Below, piece after piece: positions 5,685-47,135 of a stretch of 47,237 nucleotides of DNA. The DNA comes from Alphaproteobacteria bacterium (GTDB taxonomy: Bacteria; Pseudomonadota; Alphaproteobacteria; Rhodospirillales; Magnetovibrionaceae). The notes below the pieces were generated by a model. It was not told the origin of the DNA and ran no database searches. It saw only the letters and a program-made list of their open reading frames with translations. The stretch's first letter is position 1, and each line of letters opens with the position of its first letter. The stretch lies in assembly GCA_015231605.1 (NCBI GenBank), contig JADGBG010000010.1:1-47237 (forward strand), read 5' to 3'. The position numbers and the translations under genes were made by a program.

Positions 5685-6452
5685 ATGACCTTCAAATCCA
5701 TCGCCATGGTGGCCTCGCGCCAGCAGGACGCGCAAGACGCTCTCAAGGAGCTGAAGGGGCGCTACAAGCTGACCACGCCCTCCAAGGCCGACGCGATCGT
5801 GGCGCTGGGCGGGGATGGTTTCATGCTGCGCACGCTGCACAAGTACCTGCACCGGGGCGTGCCCATCTATGGCATGAATCGGGGCACGGTGGGTTTCCTG
5901 ATGAACGAATACCACACCAAGGGTCTGCGCAAACGCCTGGAACAGGCGCATTCCATCGTCCTGCATCCGCTGCGCATGTGCGTCACCGACATGCGTGGAA
6001 AGGTGCACGAGGCGCTGGCTTTCAACGAGGTTTCGCTGCTGCGCCACTCCCGCCTGGCGGCCAAGCTGCGCATCTCGGTGGATGGCAAGACGCGGATGGA
6101 GGAAATGATCTGTGACGGCGCGCTGCTGTCGACGCCCGCGGGCAGCACGGCCTACAACCTTTCGGCCCACGGCCCCATCATCCCCTTGGGCGCGGAGTTG
6201 TTGGCGCTGACGCCCATCAGCGCGTTCCGTCCCCGGCAATGGCGCGGCGCGCTGTTGCCGGCCGAAGCCAAGGTCCGGTTCGAGATCATCGATCCCCAGG
6301 AACGCCCGGTCAGCGCCGTGGCCGACGACCACGAGGTCGAACGGGTGCGGTGCGTGGAGGTCGTCGAAGACCGCTCCATCACCCAGGTCCTGCTGTTCGA
6401 CCCCGAACACAACCTGGAAGAACGAATCTTGCGCGAACAGTTTTTGGTCTAA
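5685..6452 (+). CDS. nadK: NAD kinase
   Basis: This 255-residue cytoplasmic enzyme phosphorylates NAD+ at the 2' position of the adenosine ribose to make NADP+. The catalytic GGDGFML motif is near residue 45, followed by [14 protein letters not shown] and the NE-containing AFNEVSLLR block. The short form, without an N-terminal extension, is typical of alphaproteobacteria. The start at 5685 follows an AAAGGGG ribosome site. Its stop overlaps the stop of convergent pyrD. Confidence 0.92.
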
Positions 6453-9473: not shown

Positions 9474-11228
9474 TCAGACCGTGGTGACCTCGCGGCATTC
9501 CTGGAACACACGCACGGGGCAGTTGTCGCAATGCCCCTGCTTGCGGAACAGGCGGTGGAAGGTTTCGATGGCGTCCTTCTTTTCGTCGAAGAAGTGCCAG
9601 TTCTTGATGTCGCGGATCAGATGGGCCTTGGCCATGGCTTGGTAGACCGCCGGCTTCAGTTCGCAGAAATACAGCCCGCCGCCCTTTTCCTCCAGATGCT
9701 GCGCCAGATGCAACAGCATCTCCGTGCCGCTGAGATCCACCATGTTGATGCCGGCGCCCATGATCAGGATGTGATGCACGCCCTGTTTATCGGAAATTTC
9801 GTAGAGCTTCTTTTCGATATGGTTGAGCGAGCCGAAATAAATCGACATGTCAATGCGCACGATCTTCAGTTGGGGGCATTCCGCCAACGGCTTGGTGGTG
9901 ACGTCGGTGAGAACGTTCTTGTTGTAACGGCGATCGATGTCCGGGGCCAGGGTCACGACTTCGGGAATGGACGTGCGCGCCAAAAAAATGACCAGCGACA
10001 GCAAGACGCCCAGATAGATGGCGAATTCCAGTTCGAGAAACAGGGTCGAAAGAAAGGTGGTGAGCAAGATGGCGCTTTCCGTCGTCGACGAGGTGAGGAC
10101 ATGCTTGATCTGCCCCATGTCGATCAGGTTGAGCGCCACCACCAAGATCACGCCGCCCATGGCCGCCAGCGGCAGGTAGGCGGACAAGGGCGCGACCAGC
10201 ATCACGATGCCCATCAGGATCACGGCGGCGAAGATGGCGGAAATCGGCGTCTTCGCGCCCGCCGAATAATTCACCCCGGAACGGGTGAACGATCCCGACC
10301 CGGCGTAGCTGGAAAAGAAGCTGCCGACAAGGTTGGACAGCCCCTGGCCGATGAATTCCTGGCTGCTGTCGATGCGCTGGTGGGACTTCGCGGCGATGGA
10401 ACGGCTGATGGACACCGCCTCGATCAAGCCCAGAAGCGCCACGGCGAAGGCCTGCGGCGCCAGCATCTTGATGGTCGCGAAGGAAAATTCGGGATGGGAC
10501 AACGGCGGCAGATGCGCCGGAATTTCGCCCACCACCTTGACCCCATGCGCCGCGCCGTCAAGGACGAGGGACAGCGCGCTGCCGACGATCAGCGCGATCA
10601 ACAAGTTCGGGTACTTGGGCTTGATCTTCTTCACGCCGTAAGCCACCGCGAAGGTCGCGCCGGCGACGATGAAAACGTAGATGTTGAAGGTGTCGATCGC
10701 CGCGAACAGGTTGCCCCAGGTGTGCAGGAAGGTTTCGCCCTTGGCCGCCGCCACGCCCAACACGTTCTTCATTTGCGACGTGGCGATGAGAATCGCCGCG
10801 CCCGCGGTGAACCCCACCACCACGGTGTGGGACACGAAGTTCACCAGCATGCCCATACGCGCCAGGCCAAAGCCGAACTGATAGACTCCGGCCAGGAACG
10901 TCAACGTCAACGCCAGGGATATGAATTCGGGCGTACCCGGTTGGGCGTAACCGCTGATCGTGGAATACACGACGATGGAAATGGCCGTGGTCGGACCCGA
11001 AATCAAATGGCGCGACGACCCGAACAGGGCCGCGATCACCGGCGTCACCATGGCGGTGTACAGGCCGTATTCGGGCGGCAGGCCGGCGATCATGGCGAAC
11101 GCCACGCCCTGGGGCAGCACGATGACGGCGCCGGTGATGCCGGCGATCAGGTCGGCGCGCAACGTGTCCCGGGTCACCAGCGGGAGCCATGCCAGGAACG
11201 GAAGAAGGGATCTCAAATGGATGGGCAT
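9474..11228 (-). CDS. SulP family anion transporter with STAS domain and Cys tail
   Basis: This 584-residue inner-membrane protein carries the SulP transport core (LRADLIAGITGAVIVLPQGV, GLPPEYGLYTAMV, SGPTTAISIVV) with about 12-14 hydrophobic segments. A cytosolic STAS domain (ILIMGAGINMVDLSGTEML) follows. Family members move sulfate, bicarbonate or other anions. The C-terminus is unusual: after the STAS domain a segment HCDNCPVRVFQEC carries three cysteines and a histidine, which may bind a metal or respond to redox state. The ATG at 11228 follows an AAGGA site; an in-frame start seven codons upstream is less likely. Cargo cannot be told. Confidence 0.9.
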   Translation of the reverse strand: MPIHLRSLLPFLAWLPLVTRDTLRADLIAGITGAVIVLPQGVAFAMIAGLPPEYGLYTAMVTPVIAALFGSSRHLISGPTTAISIVVYSTISGYAQPGTPEFISLALTLTFLAGVYQFGFGLARMGMLVNFVSHTVVVGFTAGAAILIATSQMKNVLGVAAAKGETFLHTWGNLFAAIDTFNIYVFIVAGATFAVAYGVKKIKPKYPNLLIALIVGSALSLVLDGAAHGVKVVGEIPAHLPPLSHPEFSFATIKMLAPQAFAVALLGLIEAVSISRSIAAKSHQRIDSSQEFIGQGLSNLVGSFFSSYAGSGSFTRSGVNYSAGAKTPISAIFAAVILMGIVMLVAPLSAYLPLAAMGGVILVVALNLIDMGQIKHVLTSSTTESAILLTTFLSTLFLELEFAIYLGVLLSLVIFLARTSIPEVVTLAPDIDRRYNKNVLTDVTTKPLAECPQLKIVRIDMSIYFGSLNHIEKKLYEISDKQGVHHILIMGAGINMVDLSGTEMLLHLAQHLEEKGGGLYFCELKPAVYQAMAKAHLIRDIKNWHFFDEKKDAIETFHRLFRKQGHCDNCPVRVFQECREVTTV

Positions 11229-11353
11229 CGCCGAGGGGTCCTTGCACACGAATTCGGCGCGAAACGCCGAACGTACCGTATAAAACCATGGGGCGCGCGG
11301 CGCCCCATCTCCCCTCTCCTTGCGGGGTTATACCACTTCTTATAAAAAATACA

Positions 11354-14607: not shown

Positions 14608-14976
14608 TCAAACCGGCGGATCGGGCAAGGTCATGGACAGCGCCTCCCCGTCCCCCGTCAACTCCGCGTGCGTCATGAGCCGCGCCACGCACGCCATGGA
14701 GGTGTCGATGGTCCAGCGCACCTGCCGTTCCCCCAGCGCGTTCCCGGCGGCCACCACCTCGGGCAGGATGTGCCGTTGCAGAAACCCCGCGACGCCGGCC
14801 AGCGCGCGGGCGGTCAGGCGCAGGTCTTCGGCGGGAACACGCATCTCCCGGCCGTGCCGGATCTGGTCCGCGGCCCGCGACAGCGCCGCCATCATGCCGG
14901 CCACGCCCGGGTCGGCCTCGCCCGCCTTGGCGGCGGCGAAACGCAACTGCGCGGCGTAGAAATCATAGTCTCCCAT
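14608..14976 (-). CDS. Hypothetical helical protein (122 aa)
   Basis: Not recognised. This small soluble protein is predicted all-helical (FYAAQLRFAAAKAG, MMAALSRAADQIRHG, LTARALAGVAGFLQRHIL). Its start lies 14 nt inside the end of the upstream membrane-protein gene, so the two are probably translationally coupled and may act together. It contains one Cys and no clear catalytic motif. Confidence 0.6.
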   Translation of the reverse strand: MGDYDFYAAQLRFAAAKAGEADPGVAGMMAALSRAADQIRHGREMRVPAEDLRLTARALAGVAGFLQRHILPEVVAAGNALGERQVRWTIDTSMACVARLMTHAELTGDGEALSMTLPDPPV

Positions 14977-15607
14977 TGTCCCGAAGCTCGTTTACGGCGT
15001 CCACCAGCTCGCCGCGTTTTTCGCGGATCTGCTCTTTGAGACGGTCGCGCAGCGCGTCGTGTTCCTTTTGCAATTCCTTTTCCATGCGCTTGATGCGCCG
15101 GGTCAGGTCCTCCACCCGGCGCAGCGACTTTTCGCGCTGGCGCGCCTGGTGGCGGCGGAAATATTTCACGAATTGCCATTCGCCGACGATCGCCAGCGTG
15201 ATGATGCCGGTGATGGTGAAGACGAACGCCACCACCAGATACGGCGCCTTGTCGAAGGCGAAGACGGTGCCCCAGAACCCGATCGTGACCAGCGCGGAGG
15301 CCAGAGTGAACATCACGCGCCGCGTCACCACGTCCTTGTCGTCCTTGGCGTTTTCCGCGGCGATGATGGCCAACGTGATTTCCATGCGCGCCATGTCCTG
15401 CCATTGCCGCAGCGACATGCCCTCGCTCAGGGTGCGTCCCTCGCGGATGAATTGTTCAAGACGTTTGACCACGAAGTCGGCGCGCTGCTCGGGCAACGGG
15501 TTTCCGGTTTCGTCCGGCGGCGGATTGCCGTCCTCATGGGGCGGCAACTGGGGAGCGGCGCGCGCGCCGGTCTTGCCGTTGTCCTGGTCGCCGTCAGGCC
15601 TGTTCAC
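14963..15607 (-). CDS. Two-helix membrane protein with long C-terminal coiled coil (214 aa)
   Basis: Not recognised. It starts with GTG at 15607 after a GGGAAGGATGG ribosome site. Residues 1-45 are Pro/Asp-rich and probably disordered. Two membrane helices follow (about 100-117, VMFTLASALVTIGFWGTVF, and about 123-143, LVVAFVFTITGIITLAIV) separated by a tight turn. The last 65 residues are a highly charged heptad-type coiled coil. Both tails should face the cytoplasm, which suggests a scaffold or membrane-organising role. Its stop overlaps the next gene by 14 nt. Confidence 0.65.
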   Translation of the reverse strand: MNRPDGDQDNGKTGARAAPQLPPHEDGNPPPDETGNPLPEQRADFVVKRLEQFIREGRTLSEGMSLRQWQDMARMEITLAIIAAENAKDDKDVVTRRVMFTLASALVTIGFWGTVFAFDKAPYLVVAFVFTITGIITLAIVGEWQFVKYFRRHQARQREKSLRRVEDLTRRIKRMEKELQKEHDALRDRLKEQIREKRGELVDAVNELRDNGRL

Positions 15608-15671: not shown

Positions 15672-18221
15672 TCATGAATGATCCGCGCCGGTCCCGCCGT
15701 TTTCCGGCGCGGACGGCAGGGTGAAATGGAAGGTCGTCCCGTGGCCCAGCGCGCTTTCGGCCCAGATCCGCCCACCGTGATTGCTGACGATCCGTTTGCA
15801 GACGGCCAGACCTATGCCCGTGCCCTCGAATTCCTGTTCCGTGACATGAAGGCGCTGAAACACGCCGAAGACCTTGTCCAGGTTTTCCTCGGCGATGCCG
15901 ATGCCGTTGTCGCGGACGGCGAACGCCCACATGCCGTCAAGACGTTCGGCGGACACCTGGACGCTGGGCGCGCGGTCCGCCGGACAGTACTTGACCGCGT
16001 TGCCCACCAAATTCTGGACCAGGCGGATCAATTGCCCCTCGTCGCCCAGCACGCGCGGAAGGTCCTCGACCCTCGCCACCGCGCCACGCCGGGCCATGGC
16101 GGCTTCGAGATTGAGCAACGCGTCCTTCGCCACTCCGTTCATGTCGATCGCCTCGCGCACGGACTTGCGGCTGTCCAATCGTGAATATTCCAACAGGTCG
16201 CGGATCAGGCGGCTCATGCGCATGATGCCCTTGCCGGCATTTTCCACGTACATCTTGGCTTGATCCGGCAAGCTCTCGCCGTGGCGCATGGTCAACAAAT
16301 CGAGATAGCCGGAAACCGTGTTCAGCGGGGCTTGCAGGTCGTGCGCCACGGCGGAGGCGAAGTGTTGGAGTTCCTGATTGGAATGCTCCAGATCCTTTTG
16401 CAGTTCGACGGTCTTGGTGATGTCGCGCTGGGATTCGACCACCTCGACGATGCGGCCCGTCGAGATGTCGCGGATCGGGGCCGAGCTCAATTCGACATAT
16501 GCGACGTCGCCCAAATGGTTGTAATGGCGATGCACCACCCGGGTCGGCAAGCCCGTCTTGAGGATGGTCTTGATGGGACACGGGTCGTCCTCGCCCTCGC
16601 ACGGCGCGTTCTGTTTGTGCGACAGGGCGTGACACGTCATGCCGGGCGTCAGATCTTCGCCACGGTTGTACATGTTTCGGGCCGCCTGGTTGGCGAGAAT
16701 CACCTGGTAGCTTTGCACATCGATCACCACGGTCGGGTCGGCGATGGATTCCACGAGGGTGCGCACATAGTTCTGCGAAACCTTCAACAGGTGTTCGGTG
16801 TCCTTGAGATGCGTGATGTCGTTGACGTAACCGATGAACCCCACGACATGGCCGTCACCGCCGCGCACCACCAGGGTATGTTCGCGCAACCAGATGGATT
16901 TTCCGTTGGCGTCGACCACCCTGTACGGCGCGCGTTCGAAGGACCGCGTGTCGGCCTGTTCCGCCTTGGCCGTTTCCTCGATCAACTGGGCCATGAACTC
17001 GGGTTCGATGATGCTCGAATAGCTCAACTCCCCGTCCAGGAAGCGTTCGGGGCCATATCCAAGCACGGCTTCCACGTTGGCGGAGACATACTCCACCGGC
17101 CAGCCGTATTCGTTGCGCCATCTGAAGACCACGGTCGGGCCGCCGACGAAGGCGTCCCGTTCCGTCTTCACGGCCTCGTGCAGGCGATCCAGTTCCTCCA
17201 CCGCTTGGTGACGGGATTGGATGTTGCGGAACACGATGAGCACGCCAACGGCGTACAGCACGAACACCGCCAAAAACGCGGGCAGGTAATCCAGGGCCCG
17301 TTCCCGGAGCAAGGCGCCGAGCACCGCGTCCCGGACCACCGCAGCCATGGTCCATTGACACGGCAGGCAGTTCTTGCCTTCCCCTTCGCCACCACGCACG
17401 AACGCCACCAGCCCCAGTTCCTCGCGCATTGAACCATCCTGTGACAATCCCATGCGTCGCCATTCGTCGGGCCACTGGTGGGAAAACCGGGCCTGATCCT
17501 TGTGGGAGAACATGAAGCCCCATTCCTCGAAACGCTCGAATCCGACCAGATAGAACCCGTCTCCGTTCAGCCAAATGACGTCGCCCATGAAATCCTGGGC
17601 CAGGGCACGAACGGCATCGATCAGTTCCTCGGCCAAATAATTGAGGACCAGCACCCCGGTTTTCCGGCCATCGGCGTCATAGACCGGCGCGGCCGCCCGG
17701 ATCATCGGTTTGATGGGCAGCTCCACCTCGTGATGCTCGATATTCAGGTCCAGCGGCGACATGTAAATCCGTCCGGGCGGCAGGTCTACCGCGTCCTTGA
17801 AGTAATACCGATGCGATTTGTCCTGCAATTCGGCCGCAGGCACGGCGGCCGGTTTGCCGTCGTTATAGTTGACCCGAACCACCTCCATGCCGTTCAGATC
17901 CAACAGGCGGATCTGGTCATAGCGACGCTTGGTGGCCATGAAATTCAAGAACCCCTGCGTCACCCGCGCCCGCTCGTCCTCGGGCGTCGCATGCCCAATG
18001 AAGCCACCGTGGGTGATGCTTTGGCGTTCCAGAAAAGCCAGGTCCGACTGGATTTCCTGCAGCCTCAAGCGAACCTGCACCCATTCGCGTTCCAGAACGG
18101 CGTGGGCCTCCCGCACGAGGTCGTCTTCGGTGTGTTGTTTATCCACCTGGGACAATCCGGCCCAAACGGCCGCCAGGACCACCGCGCCCGCGACAATGGA
18201 GAGGCCCGCTCCCTTCATCAT
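15672..18221 (-). CDS. Membrane sensor histidine kinase (periplasmic sensor, PAS-PAS, HisKA-HATPase)
   Basis: Order in the 849-residue protein: TM1 about 5-25; a large periplasmic Cache-like sensor (about 26-305) with a CxxC pair at C285/C288 close to the membrane; TM2 about 311-331; PAS1 about 360-480; PAS2 about 490-610; HisKA with phosphoacceptor H627 in AHDLQAPL; and HATPase with NLVGNAVKY, DNGIGIA and GTGIGLAVCKRI. PAS2 carries an unusual cluster (C530, H531, H535, C541, C548) that could bind a metal or sense redox state. Its ATG overlaps the stop of the upstream PhnD-PAS gene by 4 nt, so the two are translationally coupled. No response regulator is adjacent. Confidence 0.92.
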   Translation of the reverse strand: MMKGAGLSIVAGAVVLAAVWAGLSQVDKQHTEDDLVREAHAVLEREWVQVRLRLQEIQSDLAFLERQSITHGGFIGHATPEDERARVTQGFLNFMATKRRYDQIRLLDLNGMEVVRVNYNDGKPAAVPAAELQDKSHRYYFKDAVDLPPGRIYMSPLDLNIEHHEVELPIKPMIRAAAPVYDADGRKTGVLVLNYLAEELIDAVRALAQDFMGDVIWLNGDGFYLVGFERFEEWGFMFSHKDQARFSHQWPDEWRRMGLSQDGSMREELGLVAFVRGGEGEGKNCLPCQWTMAAVVRDAVLGALLRERALDYLPAFLAVFVLYAVGVLIVFRNIQSRHQAVEELDRLHEAVKTERDAFVGGPTVVFRWRNEYGWPVEYVSANVEAVLGYGPERFLDGELSYSSIIEPEFMAQLIEETAKAEQADTRSFERAPYRVVDANGKSIWLREHTLVVRGGDGHVVGFIGYVNDITHLKDTEHLLKVSQNYVRTLVESIADPTVVIDVQSYQVILANQAARNMYNRGEDLTPGMTCHALSHKQNAPCEGEDDPCPIKTILKTGLPTRVVHRHYNHLGDVAYVELSSAPIRDISTGRIVEVVESQRDITKTVELQKDLEHSNQELQHFASAVAHDLQAPLNTVSGYLDLLTMRHGESLPDQAKMYVENAGKGIMRMSRLIRDLLEYSRLDSRKSVREAIDMNGVAKDALLNLEAAMARRGAVARVEDLPRVLGDEGQLIRLVQNLVGNAVKYCPADRAPSVQVSAERLDGMWAFAVRDNGIGIAEENLDKVFGVFQRLHVTEQEFEGTGIGLAVCKRIVSNHGGRIWAESALGHGTTFHFTLPSAPENGGTGADHS

Positions 18222-20077
18222 GACCGTCCTCCCTCCACCGAATGGAATACGATGACGGCCCCCACCGCCCGGCCGTCCTTCAACATCGGCGTGCTGACGT
18301 ATTGCGCCTTGAAGGACGACCCGTCCTTGCGCCAGAACAACTCGTCATATCCACGGTGCTGCACGCCTTGGCGCAGGACCGACGTGATCGGGCATTGGCT
18401 GGCGGGGAACTCGGTGCCGTCCGGGAGGGTGTGGTGCCACATGGAATGGCTGTCCTTGCCCAGCATCTCCTCGACGCTCCACCCCAGCATATCGGCGGCG
18501 GCGGGGTTGACGAAGGTGTGAACACCGAACTGATCGACCCCCAAGATCCCCTCGCCGGCGTTGTCCAATATGATGTCGCGCAGTTGCTGTTCGGTGTAGA
18601 TGGTGTTCTCCAGATCCTTCAGCCGGCCGATGTCGCCGATGGCGACCACCAGGTGTTTTTCCTCGCCGTCGCTTTCCATCAGGCTCACCGAGGACAGCAC
18701 CCAAACATAGCCCCCGCCCTTGCAGGCATGGCGTTTTTGCAGGGAAAACGAACCGGTCTTGCCCTTGCGCAAACCGTCGAGCCTGGTCAGCTCCAGGGAC
18801 GCGTCCTGCGGGTGGGTGAGTTCGCTGAACGACATTTTTTTCAGTTCGGCCTCGCTGTATCCGGTGATCTGGGAATAGCGGTAGTTGGCGCGGATGATCC
18901 TGCCGCCCACCGTGGCGTGCGCGATGCCGAACGCCGCCTGTTCGAAGGTCCCGCGAAACCGCGCCTCGCTGATCCGAATGGCTTCCTGCTGATCGGCGAG
19001 CCTCCGGTTCAGGGCGGCGTTGCGCGCCAATTGCACCGTCTGCGCAGCGAACAAAACGGCGATGACCACCAGCCACGGCCAGTATTCGGCGACCACCCGG
19101 GCGATGCTGATCGGATCGAACCGGTCGTAGGGCGGCAACCGCATGTCCCGCAGCAAATCGCGCACGGGCTCGTAACTCTGGGGAATGGTCCAGCCCAGGA
19201 TGTCGGCGTCGTCGGTGGCCGGCATGCCGGGCTTCAAGCGCATCAACGCCCCGGCGACGTCCTTGGCGAGGTCGTCCGACGTGTGCGCGACCTTGGCGAA
19301 CGGCCATTCCGGGTACAGCGGCGTGCTGACCTTGAAGGGGAAGGACGGATGGGTCTGATTGTTGATGACGCGCAAGGCGTTCAGGTCGATCAGCCCTTCT
19401 TCGGCCATGCGCTCCAGGGTATCCGTGCGCACGATGCCAACATCGCTCTCGCCCTTGAGAACGGACAGAACCACCGCGTCGTGCGTCTCCAAAAACTTGA
19501 GGGCCGCGAAATCCCCCTCCTCCACGCCGGCTTCGCGCAGTGCGTGGAGCGCCATGATCCACCCGCCCAAGGACGTCGGGTGCACGGCCGCCACCTTGGC
19601 GCCCTTGACGTCCTGAAGTGAAGCGGGCAGTCCCGCGCCCTGGCGGGTGAACATCACGCTGCCGAACTGGGTGACGTGTACGCCGGGGGACAGGCTGTTT
19701 TTAAGGGTGAGGATGCGCTGCACCCCGAAATCCACGGACAATTGAACGTAGATCCCCGGATTGACGATCACGAAATCGACCAGTCGATTCGACACCAGCA
19801 CCGGAATTTCGTCGAATTCCATGGGCACGATTTCAAAGGGGGCCCCGGGAACGGCCTCGCTCAAATACGCGGCGGTGGCGTTCCAGCGTTCCAATGCCTT
19901 GTTCGTCCCGCGCTTGGCGAGAATGCCGATCTTGACCGTCTTCGGAGAGGACGCGGCTTCGGCGGTTGAAACGGCGGACGGACAGCCCGCGAACGCCCCA
20001 ACCACCAAAAGAACGGCGAACCAAGGCAGCGCCATTCCTTGCAGCTCGAACATTCCCTGGCGGAGCCAAAGAATCAT
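18218..20077 (-). CDS. PhnD-like binding protein fused to two PAS domains, no kinase
   Basis: This 619-residue membrane-anchored sensor has a signal sequence (to about residue 42). A periplasmic PhnD-like substrate-binding domain follows (about 46-300; VKIGILAKRG, DFVIVNPGIYVQL, HPTSLGGWIMALHAL), then one TM (about 332-352, WLVVIAVLFAAQTVQLA), PAS1 (about 370-490) and PAS2 (about 500-612). It ends right after PAS2; no HisKA, HATPase, GGDEF or EAL domain is present. PhnD-like domains also serve as the sensory part of TtrS-type kinases. The ATGA overlap with the downstream kinase suggests it supplies ligand sensing to that kinase. ATG 20077 has a GGTAGGGG site. Confidence 0.88.
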   Translation of the reverse strand: MILWLRQGMFELQGMALPWFAVLLVVGAFAGCPSAVSTAEAASSPKTVKIGILAKRGTNKALERWNATAAYLSEAVPGAPFEIVPMEFDEIPVLVSNRLVDFVIVNPGIYVQLSVDFGVQRILTLKNSLSPGVHVTQFGSVMFTRQGAGLPASLQDVKGAKVAAVHPTSLGGWIMALHALREAGVEEGDFAALKFLETHDAVVLSVLKGESDVGIVRTDTLERMAEEGLIDLNALRVINNQTHPSFPFKVSTPLYPEWPFAKVAHTSDDLAKDVAGALMRLKPGMPATDDADILGWTIPQSYEPVRDLLRDMRLPPYDRFDPISIARVVAEYWPWLVVIAVLFAAQTVQLARNAALNRRLADQQEAIRISEARFRGTFEQAAFGIAHATVGGRIIRANYRYSQITGYSEAELKKMSFSELTHPQDASLELTRLDGLRKGKTGSFSLQKRHACKGGGYVWVLSSVSLMESDGEEKHLVVAIGDIGRLKDLENTIYTEQQLRDIILDNAGEGILGVDQFGVHTFVNPAAADMLGWSVEEMLGKDSHSMWHHTLPDGTEFPASQCPITSVLRQGVQHRGYDELFWRKDGSSFKAQYVSTPMLKDGRAVGAVIVFHSVEGGRS

Positions 20078-20226: not shown

Positions 20227-20775
20227 TTAGCGGACCATTTCGGTGGTGCTGTCGAGCCGTACGTCGTCGCGCACCTCGCCGTCGGCGATTGTGATCAGCC
20301 CCCACAGGACGCCCCCGTTCATATGGGTGCGCCCGTCGCTCGACTTGGTGTACCAGACGATCTGGGAGCCCAGATACCACTCCCCGGCGGGAAGATCTTC
20401 GAAGCGGAACCGCCCTTCGTCGTCCGCCACCGCGACCCGGCGGTAGGTGTCGTAATCCGGATGCTTGGAAACGCCGTCGTAGCTTTTGAAGAAATTCTTT
20501 TCCCGGGACGCCGAAACGATTTCGTCCGTGTAGCTGTTGCGCGGCACAAGGACCACCCTTTGCTTCGCCCCGTATTTGAGAACGCCGCCCTGGGCCTTCA
20601 TCACGGCCTGACCGGCGATCACGCCGGTTCCCCGCTTCATGGCCCAATCGAACTGGTTTTTGGAAAACTCCGTTTTCGGCTCGTAAAGCGATTGCTGGAT
20701 ACGGATCTGCGCCGACGCGCCGGCCGCGCCCAAGGCGACGGCCAGTCCGAGCACCACTGCGATTACGAGCCTCAT
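20227..20775 (-). CDS. Secreted protein with carboxypeptidase-regulatory-like (Ig-fold) domain
   Basis: The 182-residue precursor has a signal peptide (MRLVIAVVLGLAVALGAAGASA). The C-terminal half fits the carboxypeptidase-regulatory-like beta-sandwich pattern (VAVADDEGRFRFEDLPAGEWYL). The segment RVVLVPRNSYTDEIV looks like a decoration-presenting strand. Function unknown; such domains often bind partners or sugars in the periplasm. The start at 20775 has a GGGGGAAAG site. The gene diverges from the cytochrome c' gene, so they may share a control region (20776-20904). Confidence 0.7.
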   Translation of the reverse strand: MRLVIAVVLGLAVALGAAGASAQIRIQQSLYEPKTEFSKNQFDWAMKRGTGVIAGQAVMKAQGGVLKYGAKQRVVLVPRNSYTDEIVSASREKNFFKSYDGVSKHPDYDTYRRVAVADDEGRFRFEDLPAGEWYLGSQIVWYTKSSDGRTHMNGGVLWGLITIADGEVRDDVRLDSTTEMVR

Positions 20776-20904
20776 TCTTTCCCCCTGCATCCGGCGTGGA
20801 GATGTTAGCAAGCCACGCCCCCGCACGCATCCGTTTTTCGATTTGCCCAGGCTATGGTAGTATTATCCTTTCGTTTTCACAAATCAAAGGAGAAGGAGTC
20901 CGTC

Positions 20905-21534
20905 ATGCGGGGCAAAACTCTATGGGTGGCGGCCGTCGCCGCGGGCGTTCTGGCCACAAGCGGCGCTTTCGCGCAATGGGCCCCTCCGGGCCCCGGCATG
21001 TGGGGACCGGGTGGACAGGGACGCCCCGATACCTCCCGGACCCAGACGCGCCAGGGCGAGATGACCCGCCACGGCTGGAAAATGGACGAATTGGAGCGGA
21101 TGTTCGACGGACAGTCGAACTTCAACCGCGGGCGCGCTCTGACCCTGGCCCGCGAGATCGAGGCCGGGGCCGGCGAAGCCTTGTGGAAACAGTTCGAACA
21201 ACCGGGCAGCCACGGCCCGTCCACGCGCATTACGCCGCGCATTCTGGCCGACTTCGATACGTTCAAGGAATACGCGGAAGTCTTGAAAAGCAACGCCGGG
21301 TCCTTGGCCTCGGCCCTTGAGGCCAAGCCCACGCCGCAAGAGGTGTTCCAGGGCAGGGCCATGATGCCGCGCGGATCCACCATGCCGCCGCCGTGGGCGA
21401 TGCACGCCCCCCAGCGCCGCGCCGCGCCTCAACAGCAGGACATCGGCGCGGTCGATCTCAAGGCCTTGCAGGCCTTCGCCGCGACGGCGGCCACCTGCGA
21501 AGTCTGCCACATGGTCTATCGCGGCCGGCGGTGA
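20905..21534 (+). CDS. Cytochrome c' (class II) family protein with Pro/Met-rich regions
   Basis: The 209-residue periplasmic protein has a signal peptide (KTLWVAAVAAGVLATSGAFA). Cytochrome c'-like helices carry a C-terminal heme site CEVCHMVYRGRR; placement of CxxCH followed by a basic residue at the very end is the class II hallmark. It is longer than a usual cytochrome c' because of a Pro/Gly/Met-rich start (APPGPGMWGPGGQG) and a Met/Pro/Gln-rich segment before the heme. Possible roles are NO or redox handling; the insertions are unexplained. The ATG at 20905 follows AAAGGAGAAGGAG. A terminator follows. Confidence 0.8.
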   Translation: MRGKTLWVAAVAAGVLATSGAFAQWAPPGPGMWGPGGQGRPDTSRTQTRQGEMTRHGWKMDELERMFDGQSNFNRGRALTLAREIEAGAGEALWKQFEQPGSHGPSTRITPRILADFDTFKEYAEVLKSNAGSLASALEAKPTPQEVFQGRAMMPRGSTMPPPWAMHAPQRRAAPQQQDIGAVDLKALQAFAATAATCEVCHMVYRGRR

Positions 21535-21591: not shown

Positions 21592-22251
21592 TCAGTATGA
21601 CAGCAGGCGGATATAACTCACCAGGCCGTCGATCTCCTCGGCGGTCAGGATGTCATCCCATGCCGGCATGAAGCCGCCCTTGCCATAGCGGATCACGCCC
21701 GCCATGTCGTCGTTGGACAGGGCCTCGGTCTGAATGGAATTGGTGTGGTCGGCGGGGCGGAACTTCATGATCGCCGTCATCACGCCCCTGCCGTCGCCTT
21801 CCTCGCCATGGCAGGCGGCGCAGTATTTCTGGTACAGCTTGAATCCGACTTCCGGATCGCCGATCAGCCTGTGTTTGGAGCGGCTGAGGATCCGCAGATA
21901 GGCGATGATCGCGCCCACCTTGTCGTCGCTGAAGACCTTTTCCCAGTCCGGCATGGCCTCGCTGAGGATGTTGTGACGCGCCCGCCCGGCGATGGTCTGC
22001 CCACCGCGCCCGGTGATGATCTTGGTCAGGATGGTGTCGCTGCGCGAGCGCACCGTGGTGGTGAGGTCGGCGGGCGTAATGCCCATCTGGCGGGCCAACG
22101 GACCGTCGCCCTTGCCGCCCTCGCCGTGGCACAGTTGACAGTAGGAAACGTAGAGACGCCGCCCCTCGTACGCGGGCGGAGGCTCCGCCGACGCCTGGGA
22201 CACGCCGGCGGCCAACCCGGCGAGCACGGCCCACGCGAACAGCTTTTTCAT
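21592..22251 (-). CDS. Di-heme cytochrome c
   Basis: The 219-residue periplasmic protein has a signal peptide (KKLFAWAVLAGLAAGVSQASA) and two class I cytochrome c domains. The first has CQLCH with distal Met in AMPDW; the second has CAACH with Met in GFMPAW. Such di-heme proteins carry electrons to terminal oxidases or reductases. The ATG at 22251 has a GGAGG site. It converges on the cytochrome c' gene and lies next to a hemerythrin-like gene, so this is a small redox cluster. The electron-transfer partner is not visible. Confidence 0.9.
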   Translation of the reverse strand: MKKLFAWAVLAGLAAGVSQASAEPPPAYEGRRLYVSYCQLCHGEGGKGDGPLARQMGITPADLTTTVRSRSDTILTKIITGRGGQTIAGRARHNILSEAMPDWEKVFSDDKVGAIIAYLRILSRSKHRLIGDPEVGFKLYQKYCAACHGEEGDGRGVMTAIMKFRPADHTNSIQTEALSNDDMAGVIRYGKGGFMPAWDDILTAEEIDGLVSYIRLLSY

Positions 22252-22357
22252 GAGAACCTCCGTTGCCGTATTCTGGCGTCCGGCCCCCATAATACGACAA
22301 CGGCGCGGATTCGCATACGCGCCGTTGCCGTTGGTTCCGCCGGTCTTGGCGAAAAGA

Positions 22358-22783
22358 CTAACGCTTGCCCTCGCGATAACCGCCGTACATGGGATAGAGT
22401 TGCTCGCTTTCGGCCTGGATGCGTTGCCACACCAGGTCGAACACCTCCTCGGTTTCCTTCACGAACGCCGCGTGATCCCCGATATGCAGACCGCGCTTCA
22501 CCCACTTGTCGGTGTAATCCTTGAACACCCGCTTGATGGTGCGCTCACCCTCCATGAACCGTTCGACCATTTGCCGAACCGACTTTTCATTCTTGCTGAG
22601 CATGATGGAATAAATTTGCTTGTTGTTCTTCATGTGCTCATCGAACTTTTCGACGTAGCTCTTGAACAACTCGTACGTGATGTTCGAGTCACACATTTCG
22701 CGGTCGTGAAAGAGATAGCAAAGAATCTTGGCCAACTCGCCAATCTTGTGATTTTGCTCATGAAGTTCCGTAACGGTGATCAT
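22358..22783 (-). CDS. Hemerythrin-like four-helix protein
   Basis: The 141-residue soluble, strongly helical protein has His residues at 8, 12, 26, 50, 100 and 104 (HxxxH in HIGDHAAF) and acidic residues near the end (ESEQLY). This is compatible with a hemerythrin-type di-iron site binding oxygen or NO. The usual EE pair after the third His is not evident, so the site may be atypical. The chain is Lys-rich, unlike its neighbours. The ATG at 22783 is chosen because it gives a compact family-length protein with an AGGGGAC site; the frame stays open upstream without homologous character. Confidence 0.6.
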   Translation of the reverse strand: MITVTELHEQNHKIGELAKILCYLFHDREMCDSNITYELFKSYVEKFDEHMKNNKQIYSIMLSKNEKSVRQMVERFMEGERTIKRVFKDYTDKWVKRGLHIGDHAAFVKETEEVFDLVWQRIQAESEQLYPMYGGYREGKR

Positions 22784-22970
22784 CGGAAATGTCCCCTGGC
22801 ATGAATATCCTTTGAGGTCGATTATACACCCATCAGGCCGACCTTTGGAAAGTCTGTTGTCGCACCTGCGTTGCATCCCTTGCATGGCGAATGCGACCCT
22901 CTGGCATTTGTGCTTGGCATTGACGGTTGGCGGCATATGGTTACGGGACACGAAACCGAGGAGCCCGACC

Positions 22971-23225
22971 ATGGCCGAATTCCCCATCCCCGACGGCGCG
23001 CACCACGAACCCGGACCGTGCCCCAGGTGCGGGGCCGACGCGCCGGTTGTTTCGGTCCGGACCAAGACGGACCGCAATTGGTGGGAAGAATGGAAAGGCT
23101 GCATGGGGTGCGTCACCCCGGCCATCTACATGACGCAATTTCTGGACCGGCACGGCGAATACACCATCGCCGTTCCAGGGGGGCCGGAACCGCGCGACGT
23201 GCGGCGCAAGCGGCGCAAAACCTGA
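22971..23225 (+). CDS. Small zinc-ribbon-like protein (84 aa)
   Basis: Two knuckles, CPRCG (near residue 18) and CMGC (near residue 46), are spaced as in a treble-clef or zinc-ribbon fold. The protein ends in a basic tail (RDVRRKRRKT). The ATG at 22971 has a GAGGAG site; the open frame upstream is ignored. It might bind nucleic acid or a protein partner. Function unknown. Confidence 0.65.
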   Translation: MAEFPIPDGAHHEPGPCPRCGADAPVVSVRTKTDRNWWEEWKGCMGCVTPAIYMTQFLDRHGEYTIAVPGGPEPRDVRRKRRKT

Positions 23226-46196: not shown

Positions 46197-47135
46197 CTAT
46201 TCCATCGCCGCGGGCTCTTCCGGCTTGGGCCGGAAGGTCAGAGGGTTGGTGCGGTCTTCATCGAACGCGCCCTGGATCACCTGCGCCAACTTGGCGATCA
46301 GCCGCATGTCTTCGTCCTTCACGCCGTCACCGCGCGCCACCACGTCCCGGGTCATGTTGACCAGGGTCATGCACAGATCCGTGACATGGGCATAGCGGGT
46401 CGACTTGATGCGCTTGCTCATGTCGTTGGACACCCATTGCAATCGATCCAGATGCCCCTTCAACCCGGTGCCGTCGTCGTCGGGTTCGGCGCCGTCCCGG
46501 ATGTGGCGGATGCGGTTCATCAGCCAGCCGATCTGATAGGCGTGGCGGACCACTTTTTGTTCGTTGATCACCGCCATGGTGGCGTTGATGGCGCGCTTTT
46601 GCGAGAACTCGTTCATGTGCCCCGTCATGCGCTGACGCAGGGGGTTGGGAACGTCCAGGCGCGGAATCTCAATCGTGCCCGGACGGTGCGCCTTGCGCCT
46701 ATCGGGGCCGATGTAGTCCGTGGTGACGACGAATTTCTTGCGCCCATGGGTCAACGCTTCCATCTGGGCGAAAATCTCGCACACGTCGAATGGCTTCACC
46801 AGGACGTGGTCCGTGCCGGAGTTGATCACCTTGTGGACCAGGTCCCGATTGGGGGTGCTGACCAGCGTGATGGTGACGATGAAGGGATTGTCGCCGATTT
46901 CACCGTGCCGCACCTTGTGGATCAACGTGGACAGGTCCCCCTCGGGCAACTTGGTGTCGCCGATCAGGATATCGACGGCGCCTCCGCGCAAGGCCTCCAT
47001 CACCTGGGCCATGTTGCCGGTGTCGACGATATGCCTGACGCCTTTTGCAAGGAGCGTGTCGCGGATGTCCCGACGCAAGGACGCGGACGGTTCCGCCAGG
47101 ACCACACGGATATCCTCGAACGGTGACAACGCCAT
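46197..47135 (-). CDS. Response regulator receiver with GPDRR motif and helical C-terminal domain
   Basis: The 312-residue protein has a receiver (about 8-135): Glu-Pro (LAEPSASLRRD) in place of the usual acidic pair, phosphoacceptor Asp in ILIGDTKLP, Lys in VKPFD. YIGPDRRKAHRPG follows, then an about 150-residue helical domain with no recognised motif (RHAYQIGWLMNRIRHIRDG). No DNA-binding or enzymatic output seen. The ATG has an AAAAGG site. The 47136-47237 upstream stretch is AT-rich and holds TATAGT as a possible -10. Confidence 0.82.
   Translation of the reverse strand: MALSPFEDIRVVLAEPSASLRRDIRDTLLAKGVRHIVDTGNMAQVMEALRGGAVDILIGDTKLPEGDLSTLIHKVRHGEIGDNPFIVTITLVSTPNRDLVHKVINSGTDHVLVKPFDVCEIFAQMEALTHGRKKFVVTTDYIGPDRRKAHRPGTIEIPRLDVPNPLRQRMTGHMNEFSQKRAINATMAVINEQKVVRHAYQIGWLMNRIRHIRDGAEPDDDGTGLKGHLDRLQWVSNDMSKRIKSTRYAHVTDLCMTLVNMTRDVVARGDGVKDEDMRLIAKLAQVIQGAFDEDRTNPLTFRPKPEEPAAME

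Follow-up and report, generated by a model that had tools for sequence, protein, structure and literature searches.

A conserved pair of membrane receptors that looks like a reusable two-subunit input module, with a PhnD-like protein lacking an output domain beside a receptor with interchangeable output enzymes

The window, by which we mean the whole 47,237-nucleotide stretch of alphaproteobacterial DNA analyzed here, carries two overlapping genes on its minus strand. Gene A (18218–20077) encodes a 619-residue putative co-receptor that combines a PhnD-like domain, a transmembrane (TM) helix, and two PAS domains without an output domain, and gene B (15672–18221) encodes an 849-residue histidine kinase with a dPDC/Cache-type sensor, a TM segment, two PAS domains, HisKA, and HATPase_c. 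Both reading frames exist as the first-pass annotation had drawn them, with the TGA stop of A and the ATG start of B sharing the ATGA at 18218–18221 (minus strand). A has an unbroken frame, within which a GGAGG-type stretch sits just 5′ of the B start.

The PhnD-like (Phosphonate-bd) domain of A is predicted to be periplasmic and occupies residues 50–290 (19208–19930, minus strand; Pfam, 2.7e-40). It is followed by a TM helix at residues ~325–351 (19025–19105, minus strand), supported by hydropathy and by the AlphaFold2 model; the single TM counted in the first-pass annotation corresponds to this helix, and the description is refined here by an additional N-terminal hydrophobic segment (residues 14–32, hydropathy). 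The PAS region assigned by Pfam spans residues ~372–612 and comprises PAS1 (residues about 377–485; 18623–18949, minus strand; Pfam, AlphaFold2 model, and structural alignment) and PAS2 (residues about 494–612; 18242–18598, minus strand; Pfam and AlphaFold2 model). A Pfam search of the protein found no catalytic domain, in agreement with the initial description of a PhnD-PAS-PAS protein without an enzyme. AlphaFold2 models A (mean pLDDT 67) with one unbroken helix (325–379) from the membrane to PAS1 and a second (484–506) linking PAS1 to PAS2; these modeled helices would fit a signaling relay, as expected. The PhnD domain matches PtxB (5lv1, 7.3e-8), and a second structural aligner superimposes the model fold on PtxB, ArrX, and AioX; this aligner is the source of the structural PhnD match, the top Foldseek rows listed for the model being PAS matches alone. 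The best NCBIfam match of A is the TtrS model NF040750 (4.9e-43, residues 47–345), at 147 bits far under its cut-off of 750. TtrS and ThsS (tetrathionate and thiosulfate) resemble A in having a PhnD-like periplasmic domain and one TM, but TtrS carries HisKA and HATPase in the same chain, where A has two PAS domains instead.

Protein B begins with a membrane segment (residues 5–23, hydropathy) and a sensor domain of the HK_sensor_dom_bact family (PF21623) with a double-PDC fold (residues 74–275; 17397–18002, minus strand; Pfam, 4.8e-26), which matches 2p7j/3lid by sequence (2e-17) and 3lid by fold (7.6e-15). A CxxC pair (C285, C288; 17358–17369, minus strand), present in all 14 complete B orthologs and replaced by CxxxC in L056, stands just before TM2 (residues 313–331; 17229–17285, minus strand; hydropathy). 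Pfam places PAS1 at residues about 378–469 (16815–17090, minus strand) and PAS2 at about 485–605 (16407–16769, minus strand), the latter with a C-x4-H-x5-C-x-G-x2-D-P-C motif that is kept in all complete B orthologs. The CxxC pair and the PAS2 Cys/His motif could form a putative redox or metal site, or serve as a further input. The output of B has the features of an orthodox histidine kinase: a HisKA domain with phospho-acceptor histidine H627 in HDLQAP (residues 618–684; 16170–16370, minus strand; Pfam, 1.7e-14) and a HATPase_c domain (residues 726–837; 15711–16046, minus strand; Pfam, 1.1e-29) with intact N (NLVGNAVKY), G1 (DNGIGI), and G2 (GTGIGL) boxes. The earlier account of B as a protein with its own sensor, two PAS domains, and an intact kinase is thereby borne out. 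The AlphaFold2 model of B is poor over the kinase part, because the alignment rows have GGDEF at that place.

The neighboring ORFs scanned around A and B contain neither a response regulator, as the first-pass annotation had stated, nor reductase genes that would give a TtrS-like context; the sole response-regulator domain seen in the window lies at 46197–47135. Two minus-strand ORFs without significant Pfam or NCBIfam match flank the pair (20227–20826 and 14963–15607) and could belong to the same transcription unit. Also nearby are a cytochrome c′ (20854–21534, plus strand), a two-domain cytochrome c (21592–22290, minus strand), and a weak hemerythrin-like ORF (22358–23125).

A search for the pair elsewhere, which the first-pass annotation had put forward as one of its checks, located it in a second family of this order, in gammaproteobacteria, and in a further class of the phylum, giving 14 loci with both genes intact: the window, one each in genomes G025 and G544, and 11 gammaproteobacterial loci. 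G025, from the same order but another family, encodes a 497-residue PhnD-TM-PAS protein that lacks the second PAS domain and shares 46% identity with residues 39–479 of A; its TGA overlaps, as TGATG, the start of a B protein 41% identical to window B over residues 12–611. The gammaproteobacterial loci came from a contig scan with the alignment of A and its G025 ortholog, which returned 14 loci, 11 of them with an intact pair, in Candidatus Thiodiazotropha, gammaproteobacterial symbionts of Ctena, and one Thiotrichales MAG. Their A proteins are ~602–648 residues long and 44–48% identical to A over the matched length, with B directly next. The other three scan loci hold a broken A with a cut B (L062), a match at a contig edge (L068), and a fused PhnD kinase (L069). 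In G544, which belongs to another class of the phylum, A lies at 5804–7834 of L078 with B 10 bases downstream. The two genes overlap by 4 nt in eight of the 14 intact loci and by 1 nt in G025, and elsewhere lie within ~20 nt of each other, given uncertain starts. In all 14, A ends after PAS, lacks an output domain, and stands directly upstream of B. Judged from sequence, this arrangement is not due to chance, since distant bacteria encode relatives of both proteins with 41–48% identity across most of the chain, and with the gene order preserved.

The pair is sparsely distributed. It occurs in two of 317 genomes of the order, and a phylum sample of 398 genomes yielded two true pairs (the window and G544). 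A class-level scan at 1e-75 gave no match beyond the window, and relatives on plasmids were partial matches only, below 60% identity and none covering 80%. The set represents about five independent lineages, because ten of the 14 loci belong to a single group of symbionts that are close relatives. No conserved neighbor that might name a ligand was common to different lineages; by eye, the pair adjoins thiamine synthesis and lipid genes in Thiodiazotropha, and hydrogenase and multiheme cytochrome genes in G025.

Of the two refutations that the first-pass annotation had named, a pair that is not conserved is countered by the 14 loci. The orthologs also bear directly on the other, a kinase lost from A through a frameshift near 18218, and on its wider form, in which A is a decayed sensor kinase whose HisKA and HATPase domains were lost there by frameshift or deletion. 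Such an origin is conceivable in that the order does contain single-chain PhnD-PAS-PAS-HisKA-HATPase proteins (G024, L055), and fused PhnD kinases with a close PhnD domain are known as well (L069 and L080). Yet the A orthologs of other lineages likewise stop after PAS, the window frame is unbroken, and B, which begins within the A stop codon, has a start, a membrane segment, and a sensor of its own. Within its clade no A homolog with the same PAS tail has a kinase, and we therefore reject a truncation near 18218 and regard decay as highly improbable.

A tree of PhnD domains, built by a quick method, places window A in a set of 19 rows that has full support and is made up of 16 A-type proteins, the identical pair of fused PhnD-TM-HisKA-HATPase proteins L069 and L080, and one long branch (L077). 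In proteins beyond this set, a single chain joins PhnD-TM to outputs that include kinases, hybrid kinases, GGDEF, HD-GYP, SpoIIE, and a LuxR-type DNA-binding domain; the order of the window itself has fused PhnD receptors with HD-GYP, SpoIIE, and LuxR outputs besides kinases, and a related class has GGDEF. PhnD-TM is thus a general input module in these bacteria, and the A–B pair is the version found without its own output and coupled to a second receptor. Among the individual fusions, a 462-residue PhnD-TM protein with a C-terminal LuxR-type GerE DNA-binding domain (L034, 1414–2799; G127) looks like a one-component regulator that is bound to the membrane and senses through PhnD. Fusions to HD-GYP, SpoIIE phosphatase, and GAF-GGDEF were seen at L026, L029, and L032 (G063, G003, and G087), L074 (G590), and L073 (G541). 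The genome of the window also encodes a 776-residue single-chain PhnD-TM-kinase paralog on contig C59 (1038–1979; L002, 957–3287), ~39% identical to the PhnD part of A.

Turning to the outputs of B, 12 of the 14 loci (G025 and all 11 intact gammaproteobacterial loci) encode a B protein ending in GGDEF, each with intact RxxD...GGEEF motifs. The B protein of G544 ends in HisKA-HATPase-REC, a hybrid kinase with a receiver, and a plain HisKA-HATPase output is found in window B alone. Over residues 12–611, the best match of window B is the GGDEF protein of G025; its kinase part (~600–840) is 45–52% identical to unrelated kinases of the order, for example in G025 and G036. As the B output varies between lineages, window B is by similarity a chimera, with its sensor and PAS domains nearest to GGDEF relatives and its kinase nearest to unrelated kinases. 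Within the gammaproteobacterial set, the splits with strong support are the same in a tree of A and in one of B (sensor and PAS domains only); at depth, the branching of the window, G025, G544, and L056 is poorly resolved, with long branches meeting. The first-pass annotation had called the locus a split two-component sensor: that it is a split sensor pair stands, but the label is too narrow, because the partner of A is a GGDEF protein in most lineages. Exchange of the B output enzyme between lineages, read from the domain content of the orthologs, is the new element relative to that account. Taken together, A and B look like a reusable two-subunit input module that would drive interchangeable outputs, rather than a broken kinase.

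We therefore propose, with a probability of roughly 0.7, that A and B together make up a single membrane sensor of two subunits, with A modulating B upstream of its output. The periplasmic PhnD-like domain of A would bind a small oxyanion, and its membrane helix would relay the resulting change to the cytoplasmic PAS domain or domains. Since A has no enzyme, it has to signal through a second protein, and B, encoded on the same mRNA, is the most likely one. B, which carries the output enzyme, would contribute a periplasmic input of its own through the double-PDC sensor, together with a PAS-PAS relay. Because the pair stays the same whether its output is a diguanylate cyclase, a hybrid kinase, or a plain histidine kinase, the two inputs would merge before the output enzyme, which in the window would phosphorylate an unlinked response regulator. 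This independence from the output is the main argument for the reading, and it requires contact to run through what stays constant, whether periplasmic domains, TM helices, or PAS relays. As A of G025 lacks PAS2, the core would be PhnD, TM, and one PAS domain, with not every part of A being needed. The physical contact of A and B, its region, the direction of signaling, and the ligand are points that we infer; the conservation of the pair supports the hetero-complex with A as a second input to B that the first-pass annotation had envisaged.

Linked genes can be co-inherited without interacting, which counts against the proposal, as do the small number of carriers and lineages and the long, poorly resolved deep branches of the B tree. 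A and B might accordingly be co-transcribed but independent receptors, with A docking on other PAS proteins and the ATGA overlap just equalizing dosage; the PAS-PAS part of A resembles many PAS relays of the order, making other partners conceivable. We consider this improbable, given that in all 14 intact loci, from alphaproteobacteria, gammaproteobacteria, and a third class, the partner of A is of one B type and the arrangement and orientation of the two genes are constant, that the flanking genes differ between lineages while the pair stays, and that the output of B changes while its sensor and PAS domains do not.

Two further alternatives are themselves versions of the two-subunit reading, and our confidences in them overlap with that given above. 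Binding proteins dock on periplasmic domains of LuxQ, TorS, and MbaA, and the contact could likewise be mainly periplasmic, with ligand-loaded PhnD of A docking on the double-PDC of B and the PAS domains of A being secondary. The PhnD part of A is better conserved (51–57%) than its PAS part (29–46%), A of G025 has just one PAS domain, and binding-protein-assisted kinases and cyclases are known in AioX-AioS (PMC7533571) and NspS-MbaA (PMC8967002). However, every A ortholog is membrane-anchored with at least one cytoplasmic PAS domain, neither of which a purely periplasmic co-receptor would need, and we hold this arrangement to be rather unlikely, though the least so of the alternatives. Alternatively, A could be a negative partner that forms inactive mixed oligomers with B and frees it on ligand binding, or the reverse. 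The PAS-PAS tails of the two proteins are distantly but detectably homologous (23% identity, 1e-7), so that subunit exchange is conceivable; their sensors and TM anchors differ, which makes mixed dimers less likely than dimer–dimer contact, and we give this version lower odds than periplasmic contact.

Within the two-subunit reading, the pair may be described as an input cassette, in which an anchored binding protein with PAS domains of its own would engage a second receptor at the PAS relay of the latter, the output having switched between diguanylate cyclase, histidine kinase, and hybrid kinase in separate proteobacterial lineages. We lean toward this description, with somewhat less assurance than toward the two-subunit sensor as such.

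As for the ligand, soxB and dsrA scored above curated cut-offs in all five carrier genomes tested, which makes a sulfur oxyanion plausible. The link to sulfur is weak taken alone, since 107 of 317 genomes in the order also have dsrA. No sulfur-oxidation gene was found adjoining the pair; the window encodes a SulP permease at 9474–11249. A sulfur oxyanion is thus a tentative assignment, to which we give slightly less than even odds.

Among known systems, AioX-AioS-AioR and ArrX/ArxX are similar to the pair in that a binding protein of the PhnD/PtxB fold is encoded separately beside a sensor kinase. A differs from AioX, which has been described as a periplasmic binding protein (PMC7533571, PMC5908839), in being TM-anchored at 325–351 with cytoplasmic PAS domains of its own, and, unlike in AioXSR, no response regulator is encoded with the window pair. 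The double-PDC sensors of vpHK1S-Z8 and PF21623 resemble the periplasmic domain of B by sequence and fold, but these entries describe a single-protein sensor, whereas B is paired with A. The periplasmic NspS, which binds polyamines, is from a different family than A and is not known to have TM or PAS parts. This separate binding protein controls the membrane GGDEF protein MbaA (PMC8967002), as we propose for the GGDEF-bearing pairs; the GGDEF partner is matched by the 12 orthologous pairs and not by the window, which has a kinase. By analogy, the A–B pair works like these binding-protein-assisted receptors (AioX-AioS, NspS-MbaA) with a TtrS/PhnD-type sensor, and is itself neither TtrS nor AioX.

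The published survey in which the thiosulfate sensor was found was restricted to proteins that combine Phosphonate-bd, HisKA, and HATPase_c in one chain (PMC5408782) and would therefore have missed the pair. In a review of c-di-GMP sensing, SBP_bac_3 is the sole member of the binding-protein clan studied in such networks (PMC8846402). No paper on the A–B pair was found in the open-access literature searched, which is no proof of novelty.

The pair points to receptors overlooked by searches for single-chain PhnD kinases, and it offers a natural case of one receptor pair with three output enzymes, in which the site of signal integration could be tested by domain swaps. If the cassette description is true, one signal would be linked to c-di-GMP in certain bacteria and elsewhere to phosphorylation. 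Its ligand, perhaps a sulfur oxyanion, may prove useful for biosensors and for understanding sulfur-oxidizing symbionts.
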